Shown piece after piece: positions 1 to 10,173 of a DNA stretch of 42,240 nucleotides. The notes under the pieces are model-generated. The model saw only the letters and a program-made list of their open reading frames with translations. It searched no databases and was not told the DNA's origin. The DNA lies in NCBI GenBank assembly GCA_902625325.1, contig CACOAW010000001.1, positions 130,537 through 172,776 on the forward strand, read 5' to 3'. Numbering within the stretch: position 1 is the first letter of the stretch; each line of letters starts with the position of its first letter. Made by a program: the position numbers and the translations under genes. The DNA is from an uncultured Candidatus Poseidoniales archaeon (GTDB taxonomy: Archaea; Thermoplasmatota; Poseidoniia; Poseidoniales; Thalassarchaeaceae).

Positions 1-831
1 CTACGTCCTATCTCCTCTGAGGATGATGTCATTCACGAGAAGAGCGGTGCAATAGACAGAAGGCAATTCATGAGGCTGTCTTTCAATACAGCAGCTGGAT
101 TGATTACCACCGCCTCACTAGGTAGTGTCGGATTTGCAACCTTCCTAATGGGCCAATCGGAGGGTGGAGCATCCGATTCTGCCATAAAATTCTATGTTCC
201 CAAGGGTTCTGACGTGTGGTACGGCTCTATGGACAAACAGCCCATGACTTTGCAAGCGTTTGTAGACGAGTCCGCCAACACAACGACAGGAATGGTCGGG
301 GCTGCTGGGCTATGGTCGGGTTTACCGATCATAGCAACCTATGTTCCACATGAGGAGAACAAAAACAAGCCATTAGAAGCAGGGACCCCCCGTTTCCAGA
401 TGATGGACGGGTATACCGCAGGCGGGGCTTATGTAGGATCCGGATACGAGATAGAGGAGAAAGAAGAGTATGCATCATTGAATATTCATGACAATCTAAT
501 CATAGTTTTCGCCAGGTGCCCTCACTTGTGTTGTATTCCCGGATGGCAACTCGTTAGCAACGACTTCACTGCGGATAGTTGGTTACCCGGTGGGACTGAC
601 TCTAGTGGAAACAAATCATTCTGCATCTGCCACTCCAGTAGGTATGACCACACCGTGATTGAGAAAAATACAGCTAGAAACAGGTCTAATGGACAAGAGT
701 TTGACTTCATAGGAGTAAAGAAGACCGGTGGTCCAGCTCCGTATGGAATGCCACTGATTCCGTTCACAGTAAATGGTGGAATGATTGAGGCTCTTCCAGA
801 TTTCATGGATTGGTACACTTTTTGCGGGTAG
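1..831 (+). CDS. Rieske iron-sulfur protein, Tat-exported (5' end outside window)
   Basis: This is the Rieske [2Fe-2S] subunit of a cytochrome bc-type complex, which carries electrons on the outer face of the membrane. The cluster ligands are visible as C-P-H-L-C (about nt 517-531) and C-I-C-H (about nt 619-633). The first ATG in frame is at 70, but the frame is open from base 1 and the codons at 58-69 read R-R-Q-F just before it. They are followed by a hydrophobic stretch, which together form a twin-arginine (Tat) signal. The true start is therefore upstream of the window, and an ATG-70 start would destroy the export signal. The protein is longer than a minimal Rieske, with extra sequence between signal and cluster domain. 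Cytochrome b genes follow within 12 nt, indicating one operon and one complex. The family call is secure; the exact quinol oxidised is not visible. Confidence 0.93.
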   Translation, partial: LRPISSEDDVIHEKSGAIDRRQFMRLSFNTAAGLITTASLGSVGFATFLMGQSEGGASDSAIKFYVPKGSDVWYGSMDKQPMTLQAFVDESANTTTGMVGAAGLWSGLPIIATYVPHEENKNKPLEAGTPRFQMMDGYTAGGAYVGSGYEIEEKEEYASLNIHDNLIIVFARCPHLCCIPGWQLVSNDFTADSWLPGGTDSSGNKSFCICHSSRYDHTVIEKNTARNRSNGQEFDFIGVKKTGGPAPYGMPLIPFTVNGGMIEALPDFMDWYTFCG

Positions 832-841
832 GGAAAAAAAT

Positions 842-1714
842 ATGATTCAATTCTGGTTCTTGTGGATTTTCATTGCTTTCGTAGTCGTGATTGTAGCCTT
901 CACGCTCAGAAGAGAGAGGGATGACATGCCGAGGAAGGACATCTTGAGGGCAGTAGAGACAAATGCCGGTAGCATGGGATTGGCCGAGAAGTTATTCCTG
1001 TGGGCCTTTTCCTGGCTAGATACCAGATTTAGGATTCAAGACTACTGGGGTATGAGCAAAGATTCCTACTACAGCATGCATCGACAGATGCCATTGACAC
1101 ACGCCGAAAAATACAAGCTGAGGATAATCTGGTATTGGTACCCTCTCTATTGCTTAGGTGGAATTTCATTCTTGGCATTCATAATCTTGGTGATTAGCGG
1201 GACCATTCTAGGATTTTACTACGTACCTGGAGGAGATTTGGACTCAGATCCGACACCAGCCTACGCATCAATGGAGTTCATCATGCTAGAGCTTCCCTTC
1301 GGATACATCATCAGGTCTATTCACCATTGGACAACGCATTTCTTCGTAGCAGCGGTATTCCTGCACATGTGCAGAGTCTACTTTACCGGTGCTTACAGAA
1401 ACCCTAGAGAGCTAAATTGGTTGATTGGAGTTGCTTTAATGTTCTTCTCGATATTCTTCGGTTACTCTGGTTATTTGTTACCGTGGGACAGCCTGGCATT
1501 TGGTGCTGCCACCATCGGAATAAACATGGCGATGGCCACTCCTCTGATCGGGGAATGGGTGGCTAATGCGATGTTTGGCGGAACAACACTAACGGGCCAA
1601 ACGGTTGTCAGGATGTACTTCCTACACGTTTTCGTACTACCGCTGATTGTTACAGTTCTCATTCTGGCCCATCTATTCATTGTCTGGGTTCAAGGAATTG
1701 CGGAGCCGCACTGA
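842..1714 (+). CDS. Cytochrome b6-like subunit (N-terminal cytochrome b half)
   Basis: This is the haem-bearing membrane subunit of a quinol-oxidising bc/b6f-type complex, about 290 residues. One N-terminal helix (residues 5-22) precedes the usual four-helix core. Haem ligands are visible in helix B (H161/H162 and H175) and helix D (H262 and H277). Fourteen residues separate the two helix-D histidines, the spacing typical of b6 rather than mitochondrial-type b. The G-Y-S-G-Y-L-L-P-W-D segment near 207-216 is also family-typical. I chose ATG 842; the longer frame from TTG 785 would overlap the Rieske gene by about 45 nt. The gene ends in TGA inside the Shine-Dalgarno of the next gene, which supplies the C-terminal cytochrome b half, so the split is b6/subunit IV-like. 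Confidence 0.92.
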   Translation: MIQFWFLWIFIAFVVVIVAFTLRRERDDMPRKDILRAVETNAGSMGLAEKLFLWAFSWLDTRFRIQDYWGMSKDSYYSMHRQMPLTHAEKYKLRIIWYWYPLYCLGGISFLAFIILVISGTILGFYYVPGGDLDSDPTPAYASMEFIMLELPFGYIIRSIHHWTTHFFVAAVFLHMCRVYFTGAYRNPRELNWLIGVALMFFSIFFGYSGYLLPWDSLAFGAATIGINMAMATPLIGEWVANAMFGGTTLTGQTVVRMYFLHVFVLPLIVTVLILAHLFIVWVQGIAEPH

Positions 1715-1723: not shown

Positions 1724-4537
1724 ATGGGTCTAATTGAGAGATTTGGGAGGATTGCTGACACATACGTCAGCGAGAAAGAGCAATTGCTGGGAGCAGAAGA
1801 GGAAAGGAGGAGAGTTCACACAGGACACGGTTTCTGGCCTACTGAAGTTCTTAGAGATACAATAATTTTCGCTTCGATTGTGATGGTCATTGCATTCTAC
1901 TCTTGGATTATCCCCCCGCCCTTGCACAATGCTGCGGATCCGTACGCGCAAGCTGGTTTCGTCTTCCCTGACTGGTACGTTCTATTCTCTTACGGATACC
2001 TCAGGTGGGGCGAGTATTTGCCACAGTTTGACATCCCCGCTGGACCGATAGGGGAGTTCTTCGGTCAGCCAATCGTGTCTTGGAACGCGGGAGTATGGGG
2101 GGCGATGATCACCGGAATTCCAGTAGCCATTCTCGCCCTGCCACCGTTCATAATCGGAAAAAGGGAGAAGAGAGGCGTTGAGGATCCGTGGTTCGCCACA
2201 GCGGGAGCCGTATACCTAGCGCATGTGTGGTTCATCTCTGTGTTCTCAATAAACATCTTCCTCGAGATGTATGGTCAGAATCGAAGCGATTACTGCTGGG
2301 CTGGTCCTCATGGAACATTTTTCTGCGGAACTCAGCCACCATGGACTGCTGAAGTGTTCAATGCGGTTCCATGGATACTTACCGGTGTTTTCATCTTCGT
2401 TTTGCTGTACTTCTCGGTCAGGAAGTTCCTGATTGGCCCCATGGGATCCAGGCTGACTCCAGTTCTCGGCAGACAGGTGGCCGTCGGGTCTTTGGTCGCA
2501 ACCGTTCTACTCTGCACGATTACTTGGCCAGTTTACGAGAATGGTTTCTGGAATCAAAGGGGACTTGGGACTATGGGATTCTGGGAATACCAATATGATG
2601 CTAAGATAGACGAGTTGGATGGGATAAGAGGGCAACCCGCGGACACTCTCATACACGTAGAAAAGGGACCTGTATGGGAAGATTGGGAGGACGAGTGTCT
2701 CCCGTACGAGGAAACTAACTCCCTGTCCGTCTGGGAGACCATGGAAGAGGGGACAACTAATTCGGAATGGTGTGTTTTGCCCGCGAAACATTTCGTAAAC
2801 TGGGGGATCTTCCAACCCACTCGTAGTCAGATAATAGACTTCAGCGGAGTCAATGGGCACGCCGATACTCAGACATCCAGGAATATTGGGGCGAATGAAA
2901 TCATCTACCAAGGAGCAGATGATGACAGCCCTATCTCAATATCTGAATCTATACAATTCGAGGTGGAGGACCTTGGAATATCGAAAGTTCAAACTGACAT
3001 AGGATGCAACTTCAGAACTACCGTGCGAAATGCAGGCGAACACTCTCAGAGTCTGACGCTGACTGATGATGCAGGGCAGGAAATTTGGTCGAATTCGGGA
3101 TCTACTTGCGAGTCTGGTACAATTTACCTTGACTCTGGGAGATCATACACAATTTCCTTCACCACTAACTCAGAGCAGGTCAATGACTCAGTCACCATGA
3201 TTTCAGACTTCTCAGCAGTTTCCTATCAGCCTCTGTTACTCAAGGAAGACGGGACCGCACTGATAAGATCGGAAGTTAGCCTAAGCGATGAGGAGCTGGC
3301 ATCGTTATCAGTGACAAATCCGACCTTCCAGAAAAACCCAAAGAGCCTTGATGCCAAGCTAATTTACTCGATGTTCATACCCTGTCTGGGTGTAGGGGCA
3401 TTAGTTTTCATGTTGCTCAGAAGCATGGCTCGAGGCTACGAGTGGGAAATGAACAAGTGCTATGGATGCGATTTGTGCGACGATGCCTGCCCTGTGAGGT
3501 TGTTCAACGCTGGAGATAAACTGAACATAATCTACAACACGTGGAACAACGAAGACGACGGAGTCCCCCTTTATTCTTGCCTGACCTGCACGGCATGCAC
3601 CAACGCATGTCCACAATTGGTTGACTACGACTCATATATCGATATCAGAAGGAATCTGGTGGTAGGTGGGCCCCCAGCAACGGAGATACCGCACACGGTG
3701 CTACAGGCGGTACTAGCCGCTGAGGCGGAAGAAGACGCAGATGGCTCTTTCATCCCCGTGGAGGAATACCCGTTGGACTCTAGCATAGGATATTACCCCG
3801 GATGTGTCGACTATATTGACCAAGAAATGGTCTTCAGCCATGTAAATAAAGGAACGATGGATCTTGGAGATGCGACGACTTCAGCTTTCACGATATTCGA
3901 AGAAATGGGAGAGGAAGTAACATACCTGGGTCGAGATTTCTTGAAGTGCTGTGGGCACGACCAGAAGTGGCAAGGGATGAGTGAGGTTTTTGAAAAGTTG
4001 AAGGCTTACAACCAGAAAAAGCTCGGAGAGAGCGGGATTGAGACTCTAGTCACTTCCTGCGCCGAGTGTTTCAGGACCTTTGCTCTGGATTATGAGCTGG
4101 ATGACATGAAAGTGATGCACACGACGGAGTTCCTAATTGAGAATGGATTTGATATGAACCTGAAGTCAAACGACGAAGTGACCGTGACTTACCATGATCC
4201 GTGCAGGTTGGGTAGGCAGATGAACATCTACGATGAGCCACGTGATCTGGTAGGCTCTGTAGAAGGAGTGAATCTAGTGGAAATGGAACATACCGGCGAA
4301 GATGCACTGTGCTGCGGTGTCTCAAGCATGATGTCTTGTAATGAGAACAGCAGGGCACTAAGGGTTCAGAGATTCGATGAAGTGAGGGAAACCGGGGCGG
4401 AAATTATGCTCACCTCATGCCCAAAATGCGTAGCGCACTTCGAGTGTCTGAAATTCGAGGGCGACCCAAGACATGACTTCGAGATTCTTGATGTAGTGAG
4501 CTTCCTAGCAAGGCAGATAGAGGAATCAAAAAACTAG
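1724..4537 (+). CDS. Fusion of cytochrome b C-terminal half with HdrD/GlpC-like 4Fe-4S and CCG module
   Basis: A 937-residue fusion. Residues about 40-270 are a cytochrome b C-terminal/subunit IV-like membrane part with the P-D-W-Y motif at 82-85 and about five membrane segments. Residues about 275-540 are a hydrophilic, probably extracytoplasmic insert rich in beta-type sequence that I do not recognise. A membrane helix follows at about 546-567. Next come two ferredoxin-type motifs (C579, C582, C585, C589 and C619, C622, C625, C629). Two complete CCG domains follow: C694, C742-C743, C779, C782 and C827, C863-C864, C899, C902. CCG pairs bind non-cubane [4Fe-4S] clusters in HdrB/HdrD and occur in GlpC, GlcF and LutA relatives. 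The arrangement suggests electron exchange between a Rieske/b complex and a cytosolic Fe-S active site. Substrate and direction cannot be read from sequence. Confidence 0.9.
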   Translation: MGLIERFGRIADTYVSEKEQLLGAEEERRRVHTGHGFWPTEVLRDTIIFASIVMVIAFYSWIIPPPLHNAADPYAQAGFVFPDWYVLFSYGYLRWGEYLPQFDIPAGPIGEFFGQPIVSWNAGVWGAMITGIPVAILALPPFIIGKREKRGVEDPWFATAGAVYLAHVWFISVFSINIFLEMYGQNRSDYCWAGPHGTFFCGTQPPWTAEVFNAVPWILTGVFIFVLLYFSVRKFLIGPMGSRLTPVLGRQVAVGSLVATVLLCTITWPVYENGFWNQRGLGTMGFWEYQYDAKIDELDGIRGQPADTLIHVEKGPVWEDWEDECLPYEETNSLSVWETMEEGTTNSEWCVLPAKHFVNWGIFQPTRSQIIDFSGVNGHADTQTSRNIGANEIIYQGADDDSPISISESIQFEVEDLGISKVQTDIGCNFRTTVRNAGEHSQSLTLTDDAGQEIWSNSGSTCESGTIYLDSGRSYTISFTTNSEQVNDSVTMISDFSAVSYQPLLLKEDGTALIRSEVSLSDEELASLSVTNPTFQKNPKSLDAKLIYSMFIPCLGVGALVFMLLRSMARGYEWEMNKCYGCDLCDDACPVRLFNAGDKLNIIYNTWNNEDDGVPLYSCLTCTACTNACPQLVDYDSYIDIRRNLVVGGPPATEIPHTVLQAVLAAEAEEDADGSFIPVEEYPLDSSIGYYPGCVDYIDQEMVFSHVNKGTMDLGDATTSAFTIFEEMGEEVTYLGRDFLKCCGHDQKWQGMSEVFEKLKAYNQKKLGESGIETLVTSCAECFRTFALDYELDDMKVMHTTEFLIENGFDMNLKSNDEVTVTYHDPCRLGRQMNIYDEPRDLVGSVEGVNLVEMEHTGEDALCCGVSSMMSCNENSRALRVQRFDEVRETGAEIMLTSCPKCVAHFECLKFEGDPRHDFEILDVVSFLARQIEESKN

Positions 4538-4539
4538 GG

Positions 4540-4809
4540 CTAATCGATGAAAGCGAGAATAGCGGAAAGGGAAGAAAGGAAGACATTCATCACGAAGCCA
4601 ACAACTATTGCCCTTGCAAAGCGGTAGTCCTGGTAACCTAATGCTACCAAGTACAAGAATAACCCTATGAAGATGCCACAAGCGAGGGAAATCCACGCGG
4701 AAGTAATACTTAGGGAGACCGCCATGAAGGCCCATATTGCTGTACCGTGAAGGGTGCCTAGCCAAACCATTGGGTCCTTCCACCACTTCTGTGAGTAGAG
4801 TGCTGTCAT
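4540..4809 (-). CDS. Small membrane protein of unknown function
   Basis: An 89-residue hydrophobic protein with about three membrane segments (roughly residues 15-32, 33-58 and 68-87) and a W-W-K-D motif near the start. It is convergent with the cytochrome/Hdr fusion, with stop codons 2 nt apart, and starts just upstream of the divergent ferredoxin gene. I do not recognise a family. The hydrophobic pattern and the tight fit between neighbours support a real gene. An overlapping minus frame (4526-4834) lacks this pattern. Confidence 0.6.
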   Translation of the reverse strand: MTALYSQKWWKDPMVWLGTLHGTAIWAFMAVSLSITSAWISLACGIFIGLFLYLVALGYQDYRFARAIVVGFVMNVFLSSLSAILAFID

Positions 4810-4827: not shown

Positions 4828-5214
4828 ATGCCAATCAAACTCACTATGATAAGTGTGGACTTAATGGATTCGCTGAAGAGAATGACCAAAATCGAGGAAA
4901 TGCTCAAGAGAAGGGCTGTTGAACAATCAAGAATTAGGATACAACTCAACTCGGTAAGGGCTGAGGAGGAAGCACTCCTAAAGGGCGGGGATGACACAGT
5001 TGCATGGGTAAAAGAAGAATTGTGCATTGGATGCGATCAGTGTACGATAGTATGTGAGGATGATGCTATAGAACTGTACGATACACCGCTACTAAGTCCT
5101 GTATTGAATGTGGATGTAAATAAAAAGGCGAAAATTCTGAGAGACCCTTGTACTGGATGCAAGATTTGTGTATTGGCTTGCCCCACAGATGCGATAATAA
5201 TGATTGATAGGTGA
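4828..5214 (+). CDS. Ferredoxin with two [4Fe-4S] clusters
   Basis: Up to 128 residues. The N-terminal half is a charged helical region, probably coiled coil (K-R-M-T-K-I-E-E-M-L onward). The C-terminal half carries two CxxCxxCxxxC motifs, starting C-I-G-C and C-T-G-C, the second closing with C-P. It is a likely soluble electron carrier or peripheral subunit and may supply or accept electrons for the neighbouring Rieske/b/HdrD-like complex. ATG 4828, 4846 and 4864 are all possible starts. A later start would leave more promoter room from the divergent gene beginning at 4809. The stop is followed directly by a small membrane protein gene whose Shine-Dalgarno overlaps this stop. Confidence 0.87.
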   Translation: MPIKLTMISVDLMDSLKRMTKIEEMLKRRAVEQSRIRIQLNSVRAEEEALLKGGDDTVAWVKEELCIGCDQCTIVCEDDAIELYDTPLLSPVLNVDVNKKAKILRDPCTGCKICVLACPTDAIIMIDR

Positions 5215-5218
5215 TTAC

Positions 5219-5503
5219 ATGGGGAAGGACGATCCAGTCAGGTTCGGGGCAGAGTTTGGCCCTCACAGAACGAAGAGGGCGAGCGGGGTTTCATTGTCTA
5301 CTTTCAAGACCCTGGTGTGGGTCTCTAATCTTGGGGGCCTATTCCTATTCGCAATTGGAATGGAGTTGATGATAACGGGCTCATTCTGGTTCGGAATCTC
5401 ATGTATAGTAATTGGAGTTGCCATTGCGCTCTTCCCATCTAACTATGAGATAGTAGGGATGGAGGAATTGGAAGAAGGATTGTGGGCGGGGGAAGAAGAA
5501 TAA
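5219..5503 (+). CDS. Small two-helix membrane protein downstream of ferredoxin
   Basis: A 94-residue protein with a basic N-terminus, two membrane segments (about residues 30-50 and 53-73) and an acidic tail rich in glutamate. AGGTGAT at 5209-5215 sits 3 nt before ATG 5219, so I prefer this start over the TTG/ATG at 5204, which would overlap the ferredoxin. Family unknown. Its position between a ferredoxin and the respiratory genes suggests, without proof, a membrane anchor for the ferredoxin. Confidence 0.65.
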   Translation: MGKDDPVRFGAEFGPHRTKRASGVSLSTFKTLVWVSNLGGLFLFAIGMELMITGSFWFGISCIVIGVAIALFPSNYEIVGMEELEEGLWAGEEE

Positions 5504-6580: not shown

Positions 6581-7468
6581 CTACGAACCACCATCTCTAA
6601 CGGACGAAACCAATATTTCGATGGCCTCTCTAACGGTTATAGAACCGTCACATAGTTCTGAGGTGATTTTGTCTATTTCAGGATGGGAAACTAGAATCGA
6701 ATCCCATTCGGAGATTAGTCTCTCCATCATCATCATCTTTCCCCGTGTATTCTGAGGTTCGCATTTCTCAATAATCTCAACAAGTTCCTGTATGCCATGT
6801 CCTTCTTTTGCCGAGACCAGGACAACCTCACGATTGTCATCGCTGGCGAGACTTAGTGAGGAACGTATATGCTGTGCTGCTGAAGATGCACCCGGCAAAT
6901 CTGATTTGTTAACGGCAATAACATCAGCCAACTCAAGAATCCCCGCTTTCTCTGCTTGGATGATGTCCCCCCTATCCGGGCCGTCAACAAGAAGTAGACG
7001 ATCTACCAAGGCAGCTATTCTGAACTCAGACTGTCCTGTTCCTACAGTCTCAACAATTATTCGAGTCCATCCGCATTCTGAAAGTACGCCACATATCGGC
7101 CATAGGACTGGAGAAATGGCACCAGGGGTCTTTCCAGAGGGTATAGACCTCACGAACACGTTCTCTCGCAAATCGTCTTCTCCCTCCATTCTTATTCTAT
7201 CAGCAAGCAAAGAGCCACCGGACAACGGAGATGTCGGATCTAGGGCAAGTACGGCGACGCGTTCACCTGAAGATGCCCATTTCCTGACCATCTGTCCGAT
7301 AAGAGTTGATTTTCCTGATCCCGGAGGTCCTGTAACTCCGAGAACCCAGCCTTTCGAGGTGTTGATACTTGGGGATTCCCCGGATTTAGAGATTGCAGAA
7401 ATTAGCATTGATAGGCTTCTTCGATCGCCTGATTTTGCTGATTCCAATAGATCACTGATGTCAGTCAT
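6581..7468 (-). CDS. meaB: MeaB/ArgK-type P-loop GTPase, methylmalonyl-CoA mutase chaperone
   Basis: G-protein chaperone that gates cobalamin loading and protects methylmalonyl-CoA mutase. The P-loop G-P-P-G-S-G-K-S-T is at residues 47-55 from this start. The family signature E-T-V-G-T-G-Q-S-E follows, then N-K-S-D as the base-recognition motif. The length of about 295 residues is normal. I chose ATG 7468, preceded by a GGGGTGG stretch, over the longer frame from 7513, which would overlap the mutase subunit by 53 nt. The 8-nt overlap with the upstream mutase B12-binding gene is typical of translational coupling. The adjacency to that gene supports the methylmalonyl-CoA mutase role over other ArgK-like functions. 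Confidence 0.93.
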   Translation of the reverse strand: MTDISDLLESAKSGDRRSLSMLISAISKSGESPSINTSKGWVLGVTGPPGSGKSTLIGQMVRKWASSGERVAVLALDPTSPLSGGSLLADRIRMEGEDDLRENVFVRSIPSGKTPGAISPVLWPICGVLSECGWTRIIVETVGTGQSEFRIAALVDRLLLVDGPDRGDIIQAEKAGILELADVIAVNKSDLPGASSAAQHIRSSLSLASDDNREVVLVSAKEGHGIQELVEIIEKCEPQNTRGKMMMMERLISEWDSILVSHPEIDKITSELCDGSITVREAIEILVSSVRDGGS

Positions 7469-7901
7469 TCCAATTCCACCCCGAACCGTCTCCGACTCCA
7501 ACTGGATCTCCATTTTGTTTACGAATCAGAGCCTCATTCAAGAAATCCAAGACATCTGAAGTTGGGGTTCCGGGCCCGAAGACTGCTCTGAGGCCCGATC
7601 GAAATAGGAATTCTATATCTCTTTCCGGAATAATGCCTCCTGCGAAAACAATTACATTTCCTAGTCTGTTATGTACTAGTTGCTCGCAAATCTTTGGTAT
7701 TAGAGAATTATGCGCTCCAGAGAGAGTAGATAGACCGAGAACCTCTGCATCTTCGTCGTTTACAATACGTACAATCTCCTCTGGAGTCTTTCTGAGACCT
7801 GTATAGATGACATCATGACCCCCATCTCTCAATGCTCTGGAGACGACTTTTGCTCCTCTGTCGTGCCCATCTAGTCCAGGTTTGGCAATCACAATTCGCA
7901 T
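7461..7901 (-). CDS. mcmB: Methylmalonyl-CoA mutase, B12-binding (C-terminal/small) subunit
   Basis: Cobalamin-binding subunit of methylmalonyl-CoA mutase, which isomerises methylmalonyl-CoA to succinyl-CoA. The D-G-H-D-R-G motif at residues 11-16 supplies the lower-axial histidine (H13). The G-L-S-T-L-S-G and G-P-G-T motifs of the Rossmann-like B12 fold follow. From ATG 7901 it has 146 residues, matching stand-alone small subunits, and starts with the usual M-R-I-V-I-A-K-P-G-L-D-G. The frame stays open to 8021, but that extension overlaps the divergent carboxylase gene and is probably not coding, although in-frame ATGs at 7928 and 7976 cannot be excluded. The large catalytic subunit is not in the window. 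Confidence 0.93.
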   Translation of the reverse strand: MRIVIAKPGLDGHDRGAKVVSRALRDGGHDVIYTGLRKTPEEIVRIVNDEDAEVLGLSTLSGAHNSLIPKICEQLVHNRLGNVIVFAGGIIPERDIEFLFRSGLRAVFGPGTPTSDVLDFLNEALIRKQNGDPVGVGDGSGWNWND

Positions 7902-8001
7902 GTTTATGTAAGTTGCAAGTGGCAACATGACTTCAAGCAACCGCATATGAAATTCTATTTTCTCAGGAATGCTCATGTGCGGCCTATTCCCGTCCTCCCA
8001 T

Positions 8002-9555
8002 GTGAGTGGAAACTCTGACAAGATTGACGAGCTTAGGCGTCGGAAGGCGAAGTCTCAATCAGGAGGTGGCCAAAATAGGATTTCTGCGCAACACGCTAAA
8101 GGGAAGATGACAGCGAGAGAGAGGGTTCAGGAATTGCTAGATGAGGACTCATTCACTGAAGTTGATGCTTTGGTAGAGCACAGGTGTAGAGACTTTGATA
8201 TGGATAGGAATGTGATTCCTGGAGATGGAGTAGTTTGTGGTTATGGGACCATTGATGGAAGATTAGTTTACTGCTTTGCCCAAGATTTCACCGTATACGG
8301 TGGATCACTAGGTGAGATGCACGGGCTTAAGATATGCAAGATTCTAGACATGGCATTGAAAACAGGAGCTCCAGTAATTGGTCTGAATGATAGTGGTGGT
8401 GCAAGGATTCAGGAAGGGGTCGCCAGTTTGGGTTCCTATGCTGAGATTTTCTTCAGAAATGTCAGATCCAGTGGAGTCATTCCACAGATTTCTGTCATCA
8501 TGGGCCCATGTGCTGGAGGAGCAGTATATTCGCCTGCGATTACTGATTTCGTTGTAATGGTTGAAGAGACATCTCACATGTTCATCACTGGTCCAGAGGT
8601 TATCAAGACCGTTACGAATGAAGAAGTAGGCTTCGAAGATTTAGGAGGGGCAACCACACATGCAACAAAATCAGGAGTAACTCACTTCACCGCAGAGAAT
8701 GATCATGTAGCATTGGACATAGTTAGGGAGCTGGTATCACTAATTCCATCCAACAACCTAGACATTGCGCCATCGATTGAGACTAGTGATCCTCTGGAGA
8801 GAAGGTGTGATTCTCTGGACTCTCTTGTACCCGAAGATCCCAGTCGACCCTATGACATGGGAGAGGTAATTCAGGAGGTTCTAGACTTGGATAGTTTTCT
8901 AGAAATTCAGGATGGTTTTGCTCCGAATATAATTATTGGACTAGGTAGGCTTGGGGGACAGTCGATCGGAGTTGTGGCAAACCAGCCAATGCATCTAGCA
9001 GGCTGTTTGGATATCGATGCCTCTGTTAAAGCAGCAAGATTTGTGCGCTTTTGTGACGCATTTAACATCCCACTGTTGACTTTTGTTGACGTTCCCGGTT
9101 TTCTACCAGGTGCTAGCCAAGAGTGGGGCGGCATAATCAGGCATGGTGCCAAACTACTCTATGCATTCGCAGAGGCAACGGTTCCCAAGATGACAGTTAT
9201 CACTAGGAAGGCGTATGGCGGTGCCTATGATGTGATGTCATCTAAGCATATAAGAGGAGATTACAACATTGCTTGGCCTACTGCTGAACTCGCAGTGATG
9301 GGGGCAAAGGGGGCCGTGCAAATTATTCATAGGAGAAGAATAGATAGTTCGAAAAATCCCGAACAGGAGCGACAGAGGCTAGTTGACGATTACGAGGAGT
9401 CATTTGCAAACCCATACAAGGCTGCTGCATTGGGTTATCTTGACGATGTTATCGTGCCTTCTGAAACTAGGTCTGCTCTAGTCAAGGCATTGGGGGCAAT
9501 TCTGGAGAAAGAAGAGCCTAGGCCCGATAAGAAACATGGAAATATCCCGTTGTGA
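8002..9555 (+). CDS. pccB: Acyl-CoA (probably propionyl-CoA) carboxylase, carboxyltransferase beta subunit
   Basis: The biotin-dependent carboxyltransferase that moves CO2 from carboxybiotin to an acyl-CoA. Both crotonase-fold halves are complete, with [10 protein letters not shown] and G-P-C-A-G-G-A in the N half and [10 protein letters not shown] and A-Y-G-G-A-Y-D-V-M in the C half. In actinobacterial homologues the residue after GGAY helps set acyl preference, and aspartate there goes with propionyl-CoA. Together with the divergent mutase and MeaB genes this favours propionyl-CoA. GTG 8002 begins V-S-G-N-S-D-K-I, close to family starts; an in-frame ATG lies at 7969. The next gene overlaps its stop by 20 nt. 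No biotin carboxylase gene is present here. Confidence 0.93.
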
Positions 9556-9757
9556 TATCGTGAGTGTTGGGGAATTAGAGCCTGAGGAGATAGTCGCGGT
9601 TATCTCAGTAGTACTATTGAGCGGAGAATTGGGAGAAACAATCGCTCCTTCGAAGGGGAGAGAAGCTGGAAGTAACTGGTCGGTTTCGCATAGAATGATG
9701 GCTTCGGGAAACTCCTCGTTGCTAAACTCCAAATCAAGTAGGAGCTCTAGGAGGTGA
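9536..9757 (+). CDS. Small acyl-CoA carboxylase epsilon-like subunit
   Basis: A 73-residue protein between the carboxyltransferase and biotin-carrier genes, overlapping the first by 20 nt. Its core, [18 protein letters not shown] followed later by N-W-S-V-S-H-R-M, resembles the pattern of actinobacterial AccE/PccE epsilon subunits (short strand, P-x-E-E-hydrophobic helix, then a W plus basic segment). Those epsilon chains bind and stimulate acyl-CoA carboxylases. The similarity is by eye and the protein is very short. The genomic position makes it the most attractive explanation. The C-terminal S/R-rich tail is not conserved-looking and overlaps the next gene's ribosome-binding site. Confidence 0.62.
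9749..9757 (+). promoter_or_regulatory. Strong Shine-Dalgarno deciding a TTG start of the biotin carrier gene
   Basis: AGGAGGTGA matches the anti-Shine-Dalgarno almost perfectly and ends 5 nt before TTG 9763. The alternative GTG 9754 lies inside the motif itself, so TTG 9763 is the better start. The motif also contains the TGA of the epsilon-like gene. Confidence 0.65.
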
Positions 9758-9762
9758 GTAGT

Positions 9763-10173
9763 TTGTCTAAGAAAAGGAAAGTAACTGTTAATGGAGTAGA
9801 GTACGAAGTGGAGATTCAATTTGAGGAAGGGAAATGGAAGGTTTCCATAGATGGAAATTTGTACGAAGTCGAGATGGATCAAGGGTCGAAGCGAGGCCAG
9901 CGAAAGAAGCGTGATTCCAACAGAGGAGGGGGGCCAAATTCAGGACTTATTTCTTCGGCGATTCCAGGAAAAATTGTGTCAGTACTAGTTTCCGAAGGTG
10001 ATAAAGTGGACAGCGGTAGTGTGGTAATCGTACTTGAAGCGATGAAGATGCAAAACGAAATTAAGGCCGTTATTGATGGGAAGGTTGAGAAAATCATGTG
10101 CAAACCAGGGGAGAGAATTGAGGCGAATGTGCCTCTGATGGAAATTGTGGATAGCAAAAAAGAGGGTGAATGA
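9763..10173 (+). CDS. Biotin carboxyl carrier protein of acyl-CoA carboxylase
   Basis: About 136 residues. A short N-terminal beta-rich segment and a basic, glycine-rich linker (roughly residues 42-60) precede a C-terminal biotinyl domain. The biotinylation motif E-A-M-K-M is present with the acceptor lysine at about residue 95 from the TTG start, followed by a standard second half. The protein shuttles carboxybiotin between an unlinked biotin carboxylase and the carboxyltransferase encoded upstream. Its stop overlaps the ATG of the next small gene (ATGA), so the four genes form one transcription unit. Confidence 0.93.
   Translation: MSKKRKVTVNGVEYEVEIQFEEGKWKVSIDGNLYEVEMDQGSKRGQRKKRDSNRGGGPNSGLISSAIPGKIVSVLVSEGDKVDSGSVVIVLEAMKMQNEIKAVIDGKVEKIMCKPGERIEANVPLMEIVDSKKEGE

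Follow-up and report, generated by a model that had tools for sequence, protein, structure and literature searches.

Subunit IV of cytochrome b fused to an HdrC-HdrB iron-sulfur module in Marine Group II archaea

The fusion protein and its membrane part

The window analysed here is a 42,240-nucleotide stretch of contig CACOAW010000001.1 (assembly GCA_902625325.1, positions 130,537 to 172,776 of the forward strand) from a Marine Group II (MGII) archaeon, Candidatus Thalassarchaeaceae, and it carries a gene (positions 1724..4537, + strand) whose 937-residue product joins the subunit-IV half of cytochrome b to a two-helix hairpin with a predicted extracellular beta domain and then to a predicted cytosolic HdrC-HdrB module. 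Its frame runs uninterrupted from the ATG at 1724 to the stop at 4537, and the genes directly upstream encode a Rieske protein and a cytochrome b6-like protein. The assignment of the DNA to this group rests on named loci with identities of 96% and below. MGII archaea are uncultured and very abundant, and are the commonest archaea of the surface ocean; the make-up of their complex III can now be described. It occurs throughout MGII and in several further Thermoplasmatota lineages, and a ferredoxin gene is coupled to it.

The fusion is genuine and occurs throughout these MGII archaea. The genome search covered the phylum Thermoplasmatota, the scan itself used MGII-specific peptides, and every one of the 98 genomes searched in the order to which the window belongs has a match (98/98), among them the single-contig genome G060, where an intact frame encodes 943 residues. 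Of the 80 named loci from public assemblies, 79 reach from residue 1 to residue 932 or beyond; the sole exception ends at a contig edge. Conservation along the protein is highest at residues 551–650 (94–95%). The original prediction, made from the letters of this DNA alone, had described one 937-residue chain with P-D-W-Y at residues 82–85, two 4Fe-4S motifs and two intact CCG domains, all of which we find, and had named a frameshift or chimera between residues 540 and 600 as something that would undo that description. Such an artefact is excluded, since 79/80 loci span the junction, the G060 frame is intact and residues 551–650 are the most conserved part. We also note that one contig with a 73% identical fusion (L084) belongs to a record titled Acidimicrobiaceae bacterium SP142; it looks like Thalassarchaeaceae DNA and was probably mis-binned in a bacterial metagenome-assembled genome.

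The subunit-IV-like membrane part (residues 1–236; 1724..2431, +) has four helices (E–H). In the window protein it scores under the Pfam threshold, and it aligns over its full length with relatives that match PF00032 (L172) or the subunit IV model TIGR01156 (L175), as well as with subunit IV proteins that stand unfused elsewhere in the phylum. Its PDWY motif (P82 D83 W84 Y85; 1967..1978, +), the quinol-oxidation (Qo) motif of the ef loop of a subunit IV or cytochrome b C-terminal half, is predicted to lie outside the membrane and is invariant in 66 sequences. When an unfused four-helix subunit IV (L177) is aligned with the fusion, its natural C terminus (YEFNLNRTYYKVR) falls where the Fe-S module starts (YEWEMNKCYGCDLCDDACPVR), so that the HdrC-like domain begins where an unfused subunit IV ends.

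Between these two parts lies an insertion (residues about 237–567; 2432..3424, +) which, from alignments and loop charges, consists of an extracellular beta domain between two additional helices. It is the least conserved part of the fusion, and it is present in MGII alone, being absent from the corresponding proteins of genomes G194 and G202 and of family f3, a sister group in the same class that we take to be Marine Group III (below, presumed MGIII). The extracellular domain itself (residues 271–545; 2534..3358, +) is confidently predicted to fold as a beta sandwich (predicted local distance difference test (pLDDT) 85.6), with a weak GOLD/jelly-roll resemblance; it has no Pfam match, and no metal-site or cofactor motif was seen in it. 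We considered whether it could substitute for a cytochrome c/f or a cupredoxin and rejected this, as it is a beta sandwich with no haem or copper motif and only potentially pairing Cys residues. The long hydrophilic insert followed by a sixth helix that had been proposed at this point is real, and is better described as a two-helix hairpin with an extracellular domain. Charge distribution and helix counts place the Fe-S module on the inner side of the membrane and both PDWY and the insert on the outer side, and because the insert appears to be a hairpin of two extra helices (judged from loop charges and the four-helix relatives) the module would stay cytosolic.

Identity and ancestry of the iron-sulfur module

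Residues 579–937 form an HdrC-HdrB module, a type of iron-sulfur unit familiar otherwise from methanogens. The HdrC-like dicluster [4Fe-4S] domain (residues 579–629; 3458..3610, +) coincides with a Pfam match to Fer4_8/Fer4_9 (PF13183/PF13187) at residues 575–631, and two CCG domains (PF02754, E = 1.2e-22) follow it, the distal domain 1 (3803..4069, +) with ligands C694, C742, C743, C779 and C782, and the proximal domain 2 (4202..4429, +) with C827, C863, C864, C899 and C902. All 18 of these cluster cysteines (8 Fer4 + 10 CCG) are invariant among the 83 distinct MGII sequences of our cysteine alignment. Two [4Fe-4S] motifs and two complete five-Cys CCG motifs of Hdr-type pattern are what HdrD and HdrB-HdrC contain, and the pattern is that of the free HdrCB proteins of Thermoplasmatota (L212–L219). 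Differences from HdrD and free HdrCB are that the membrane partner in MGII is a bc-type cytochrome b and not an HdrE/NarI-type protein, that the gene stands in a Rieske operon, and that curated NCBIfam Hdr cut-offs are not reached (HdrC 18 bits against 160; no HdrB match is listed for the fusion). Nor are those of GlpC (42.5 against 278 bits), TfrB (the best, 107 against 385), GlcF, DsrK (33 against 400) or LdhH, and a GlpC identity is ruled out by these cut-offs together with the residues.

The nearest solved homologue of the module by sequence is mycobacterial EtfD (PDB 9ojn), which likewise unites in one chain a membrane part with haem b, two [4Fe-4S] clusters and two CCG domains feeding quinone. 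In its structure (PMC13083937) clusters D1–D4 lie in line to haem b and menaquinone, the same Fer4/CCG set thus serving as an electron wire. EtfD differs in having a five-helix membrane part with one haem b and no Qo site or Rieske partner; its CCG1 has lost one Cys and binds a linear [3Fe-4S] cluster, and the His of a CxHC motif caps cluster D2. The MGII fusion, in contrast, has a membrane part of subunit-IV type, retains the five Cys of each CCG motif (C743 included) and has E781 at the position of the EtfD His, as do the free Thermoplasmatota HdrCB proteins. A tree of 27 modules unites the 12 bc-linked ones in a single clade (100/99) that adjoins free HdrCB, and bc-linked and free HdrCB modules together are split from electron transfer flavoprotein (ETF)-linked modules, including the EtfD-type paralogues, at 100/100; the tree tool flags single long-branch rows, G202 among them, as less certain. 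The bc-linked modules share a common ancestry, and the simplest history suggested by these sequences is a single capture of HdrCB by the bc complex in this phylum, followed by splitting or insertion. Of the HdrD/GlpC-like identity first suggested for the module, then, the Hdr half holds on residues and tree and the GlpC half does not, and the module is not EtfD-type either.

A role as an ETF:quinone oxidoreductase, in which the module would take electrons of beta-oxidation from EtfAB in the manner of mycobacterial EtfD, has in its favour that relationship and the finding that EtfAB occurs in 23/23 genomes while a classical ETF:quinone oxidoreductase scored above cut-off in 0/23. However, the MGII genomes checked contain a separate paralogue of 662–666 aa with the EtfD residue pattern, the orthologue of which adjoins EtfAB in presumed MGIII, and the bc-linked module sits in a different clade, so we regard this role as very unlikely. 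Proteins of EtfD type with a membrane N-terminal part, C[SN]GD and CPHC were seen in MGII and the sister lineage (L204:3723-5723, L205:2992-4980 and L208:2678-4678), and these are probable archaeal EtfD proteins in genomes where classical ETF:quinone oxidoreductase is absent. L206 and L218 hold HdrA-like and CCG-type proteins, within an EtfAB cluster, that resemble confurcating dehydrogenases and have lost most CCG1 ligands.

The operon and a proposed route for electrons

The Rieske protein (282 aa, TAT-type N terminus) occupies window positions 1..831 (+), its whole gene (L101:11983-12831) starting just upstream of the window, and its CPHLCC and CICHSSRYD boxes contain the disulfide Cys as well as the two pairs of Cys/His ligands. 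No Pfam family matches it, and the NCBIfam model Rieske_proteo does so below cut-off (5.5e-8), but both boxes are present in 79 of the 81 loci with a match (CPHLCC/CTHLCC with CICHSS in 76, and CPHLCC with CPCHLS in 3 more). The next gene (842..1714, +) encodes the 290-aa b6-like N-terminal half of cytochrome b (Pfam PF00033, Cytochrome_B, 5.4e-41; best PDB match cytochrome b6, 3.8e-41), with the two expected His pairs for haem b in helices B and D, H-x13-H (HHWTTHFFVAAVFLH) and H-x14-H (HVFVLPLIVTVLILAH). The Cys of its YCLGG motif is equivalent to Cys35 of b6, the haem c-i ligand of b6-type complexes, and is kept in 84/85 loci. After the fusion come a 128-aa RnfB-like 2[4Fe-4S] ferredoxin (4828..5214, +; Pfam Fer4_21 6e-12, rnfB model 1.1e-10, below cut-off), probably the orphan RnfB of Tully 2019 (PMC6336850), and its conserved companion, a 94-aa membrane protein (5219..5503, +) also found in L234–L236. 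Together with a choice-of-anchor V protein and a small transmembrane protein (weak DUF7318 match) these make up a seven-gene set, in the order choice-of-anchor V protein, small transmembrane protein, Rieske, cytochrome b, fusion, ferredoxin and 94-aa protein, that is present in 62/62 complete MGIIb loci. In family f2 the ferredoxin and 94-aa protein genes lie just downstream in inverted orientation in the three loci read, and by coordinates the ferredoxin is near the fusion in most f2 genomes; in G060 it is some 14 kb away.

Both halves of the complex look functional because the Qo motif, haem ligands, Rieske boxes and 18 Fe-S cysteines are all kept. Rieske and b6-like genes stand directly upstream, as the original prediction stated, and its larger idea, that one bc-type complex is joined to an HdrD-like module on the cytosolic side, appears right. 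A structural, regulatory or vestigial module on an ordinary bc complex has in its favour that extracellular decorations vary from lineage to lineage; such a role is highly improbable, however, given 18 invariant ligand cysteines, a Fer4 region that is the most conserved of all, and retention of the module in several lineages.

Other Thermoplasmatota carry related arrangements. Presumed MGIII has a split, insert-free version made up of a subunit IV + Fer4 gene, a CCG-CCG gene, a four-cluster polyferredoxin and a transmembrane protein, and in every genome read (loci L183, L185, L187) one distal-CCG cysteine is missing, either C743 (to S) or C782 (to G), which suggests a degenerate or linear [3Fe-4S] cluster. 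G194 has a 789-aa insert-free fusion followed by a four-cluster polyferredoxin, and in G202/G207 the gene after a 606-aa insert-free fusion is HdrA-FlpD(MvhD), in the place of the ferredoxin; the orders of G194 and G202 held one and two searched genomes, respectively, so these fusions rest on one lineage each. In G207 that downstream gene (L233:757-2292) encodes a short HdrA fused to FlpD/MvhD in which some Fer4 Cys look lost.

The metabolic setting points to ferredoxin. In a search of G000 and 22 other genomes, NuoF, the 51-kDa subunit of complex I, is absent from 15/16 MGII genomes (positive controls worked), and a POR domain is present in 16/16, which makes ferredoxin a likely carrier of respiratory electrons; single genomes are incomplete, but the NuoF, POR and ETF pattern is consistent across them. 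MGII have been described as possessing canonical NADH dehydrogenases (PMC6336850), in contrast to the absence of NuoF here.

We favour, at about even confidence, a complex that connects ferredoxin in the cytosol with the quinone-reducing side of the bc complex, with electrons flowing from ferredoxin to quinone. MGII complex III would be a b6-type Rieske/cytochrome b complex with the HdrC-HdrB module at the cytosolic end of subunit IV. Quinol would be oxidised at the outer Qo site (PDWY) in the manner of other bc complexes, the Rieske protein receiving one electron, while the two [4Fe-4S] and two CCG clusters would form a wire between the RnfB-like partner and haem b-H, haem c-i and the quinone-reduction site. 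Ferredoxin reduced by 2-oxoacid:ferredoxin oxidoreductases would in this way reduce quinone at the inner site, with re-oxidation of the resulting quinol at Qo, giving a second, proton-translocating entry point for ferredoxin. Cofactor content, topology, ferredoxin contact and direction of flow are what we infer from sequence. The proposal is favoured by the ferredoxin-type gene that follows the module also in presumed MGIII and G194, and by the conserved equivalent of the haem c-i Cys; and since presumed MGIII has lost a distal-cluster ligand in two different ways, disulfide chemistry conserved at two clusters fits less well than a wire. Complex I of these archaea appears to have no NADH-binding subunit, and the proposed complex would help to account for the way in which they handle ferredoxin in aerobic respiration.

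Several points weigh against this proposal. Should complex I already be oxidising ferredoxin, a second point of entry would waste energy; the set of bridging Cys of Hdr type that is lost in the electron-only EtfD is complete in MGII, so its CCG clusters could do chemistry; donor and acceptor roles of the RnfB-like ferredoxin are not distinguishable from its sequence; and the full-length AlphaFold model is poor (pLDDT 52.9) and unusable for cluster-to-haem distances.

Electrons might instead flow the other way, in a quinol-driven bifurcating reductase that passes one electron to Rieske and oxygen and the other through haems b-L and b-H and HdrCB to ferredoxin (or via HdrA in G202). The same has been proposed for those anammox Rieske/cytochrome b complexes that carry an NAD(P) oxidoreductase on the cytosolic side (PMC12954380), the CICHSSRYD box retains a Ser and a Tyr that are usual in high-potential Rieske clusters, and HdrA-MvhD adjoins the module in G202/G207. 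Nonetheless, ferredoxin reduction demands a very low haem b-L potential, and MGII, as aerobic heterotrophs, should already produce reduced ferredoxin through POR; we consider this direction an unlikely one that deserves attention. With similar hesitation, and marginally less conviction, we suggest that diversion of the low-potential branch through HdrCB could let quinol oxidation by oxygen (via Rieske) drive cytosolic ferredoxin or disulfide reduction, and that G202/G207 could join quinone- and flavin-based bifurcation in one assembly. If bifurcation did occur, it would be quinone-based and hard-wired in the complex III of these archaea.

The original prediction had suggested thiol/disulfide or organic-acid chemistry, and this is not the best-supported role. 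A quinol-linked enzyme whose noncubane clusters reduce or form some disulfide, as HdrB does with CoM-S-S-CoB, would account for the invariance in MGII of both five-Cys Hdr motifs, with the extra Cys missing in EtfD, and for the position of the module beside free HdrCB in the tree; because both sets are complete in MGII, we keep it as a doubtful alternative. The independent loss of C743 or C782 in presumed MGIII speaks against a family-wide role of this kind, the most conserved partner gene encodes an RnfB-like ferredoxin and not a thiol protein, and a methanogenic cofactor role is not expected in aerobic MGII.

Known complexes and other genes of the loci

CCG proteins of HdrD type also reach quinone through a membrane b cytochrome in Hme, DsrMKJOP and Qmo; that cytochrome, however, is of NarI/HdrE type, and these systems have no Rieske protein and no Q cycle. 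With b6f and bc1 complexes the MGII complex shares the split b6 and subunit IV, the H-x13-H and H-x14-H pairs, PDWY, a Rieske protein and the b6 Cys35 equivalent, but its subunit IV is extended by HdrCB and it has no clear cytochrome c1/f. The anammox complexes (PMC12954380) also have an added cytosolic redox module for which bifurcation is proposed, but there the module is an unrelated NAD(P) oxidoreductase and not HdrCB fused to subunit IV. How cytosolic redox modules connect with the inner quinone site is also a live question for the anammox complexes and for b6f (haem c-i, cyclic electron flow), and the MGII fusion gives an instance in which it can be put to the test.

A close precedent is in Angelarchaeales, where Diamond et al. 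2022 (PMC9038741) noted hdrD-like and rnfB-like genes adjoining complex III and suggested a ferredoxin entry point. That locus is likewise a Thermoplasmatota Rieske/cytochrome b complex with HdrD-like and RnfB-like genes beside it, but (compared by description only) the neighbouring genes are given in one sentence, with no subunit IV fusion and no insertion domain, and MGII is not covered. An MGII genome paper (PMC6336850) reported cytochrome b and Rieske proteins and no canonical bc1. We found no description of a subunit IV-HdrCB fusion in the open-access literature, a weak negative because most subscription papers lay outside the search. The initial view that the exact fusion was new thus agrees with our search, while the association of its parts was already partly known from Angelarchaeales; what is new here is the fusion as a variant of the Rieske/cytochrome b complex, and its function as a ferredoxin:quinone oxidoreductase is our proposal.

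The only candidate for a c-type cytochrome c1/f is the upstream choice-of-anchor V protein of the operon (L101:10713-11534, upstream of the window), which is membrane-anchored and has a conserved CTCH (CxCH, not CxxCH); it may be the missing c1/f counterpart, with an unusual haem or another metal. An 89-aa membrane protein encoded on the opposite strand between the fusion and ferredoxin genes (4540..4809, −) is probably outside the complex, because only 37/62 complete loci carry its gene.

Extracellular decoration of the bc complex varies by lineage; in two loci (L175:788-3613 and L172:6086-7975) the N-terminal half of cytochrome b stands behind Big_5 Ig-like extracellular domains, and other Thermoplasmatota (L177, L180) have an ordinary Rieske protein, cytochrome b and unfused subunit IV. 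Within the window, the respiratory operon is adjoined at 6581-10173 by genes for a MeaB-type GTPase, a B12-binding mutase part, a carboxyltransferase and a biotin carrier, which from their translations form a putative methylmalonyl/propionyl-CoA cluster.

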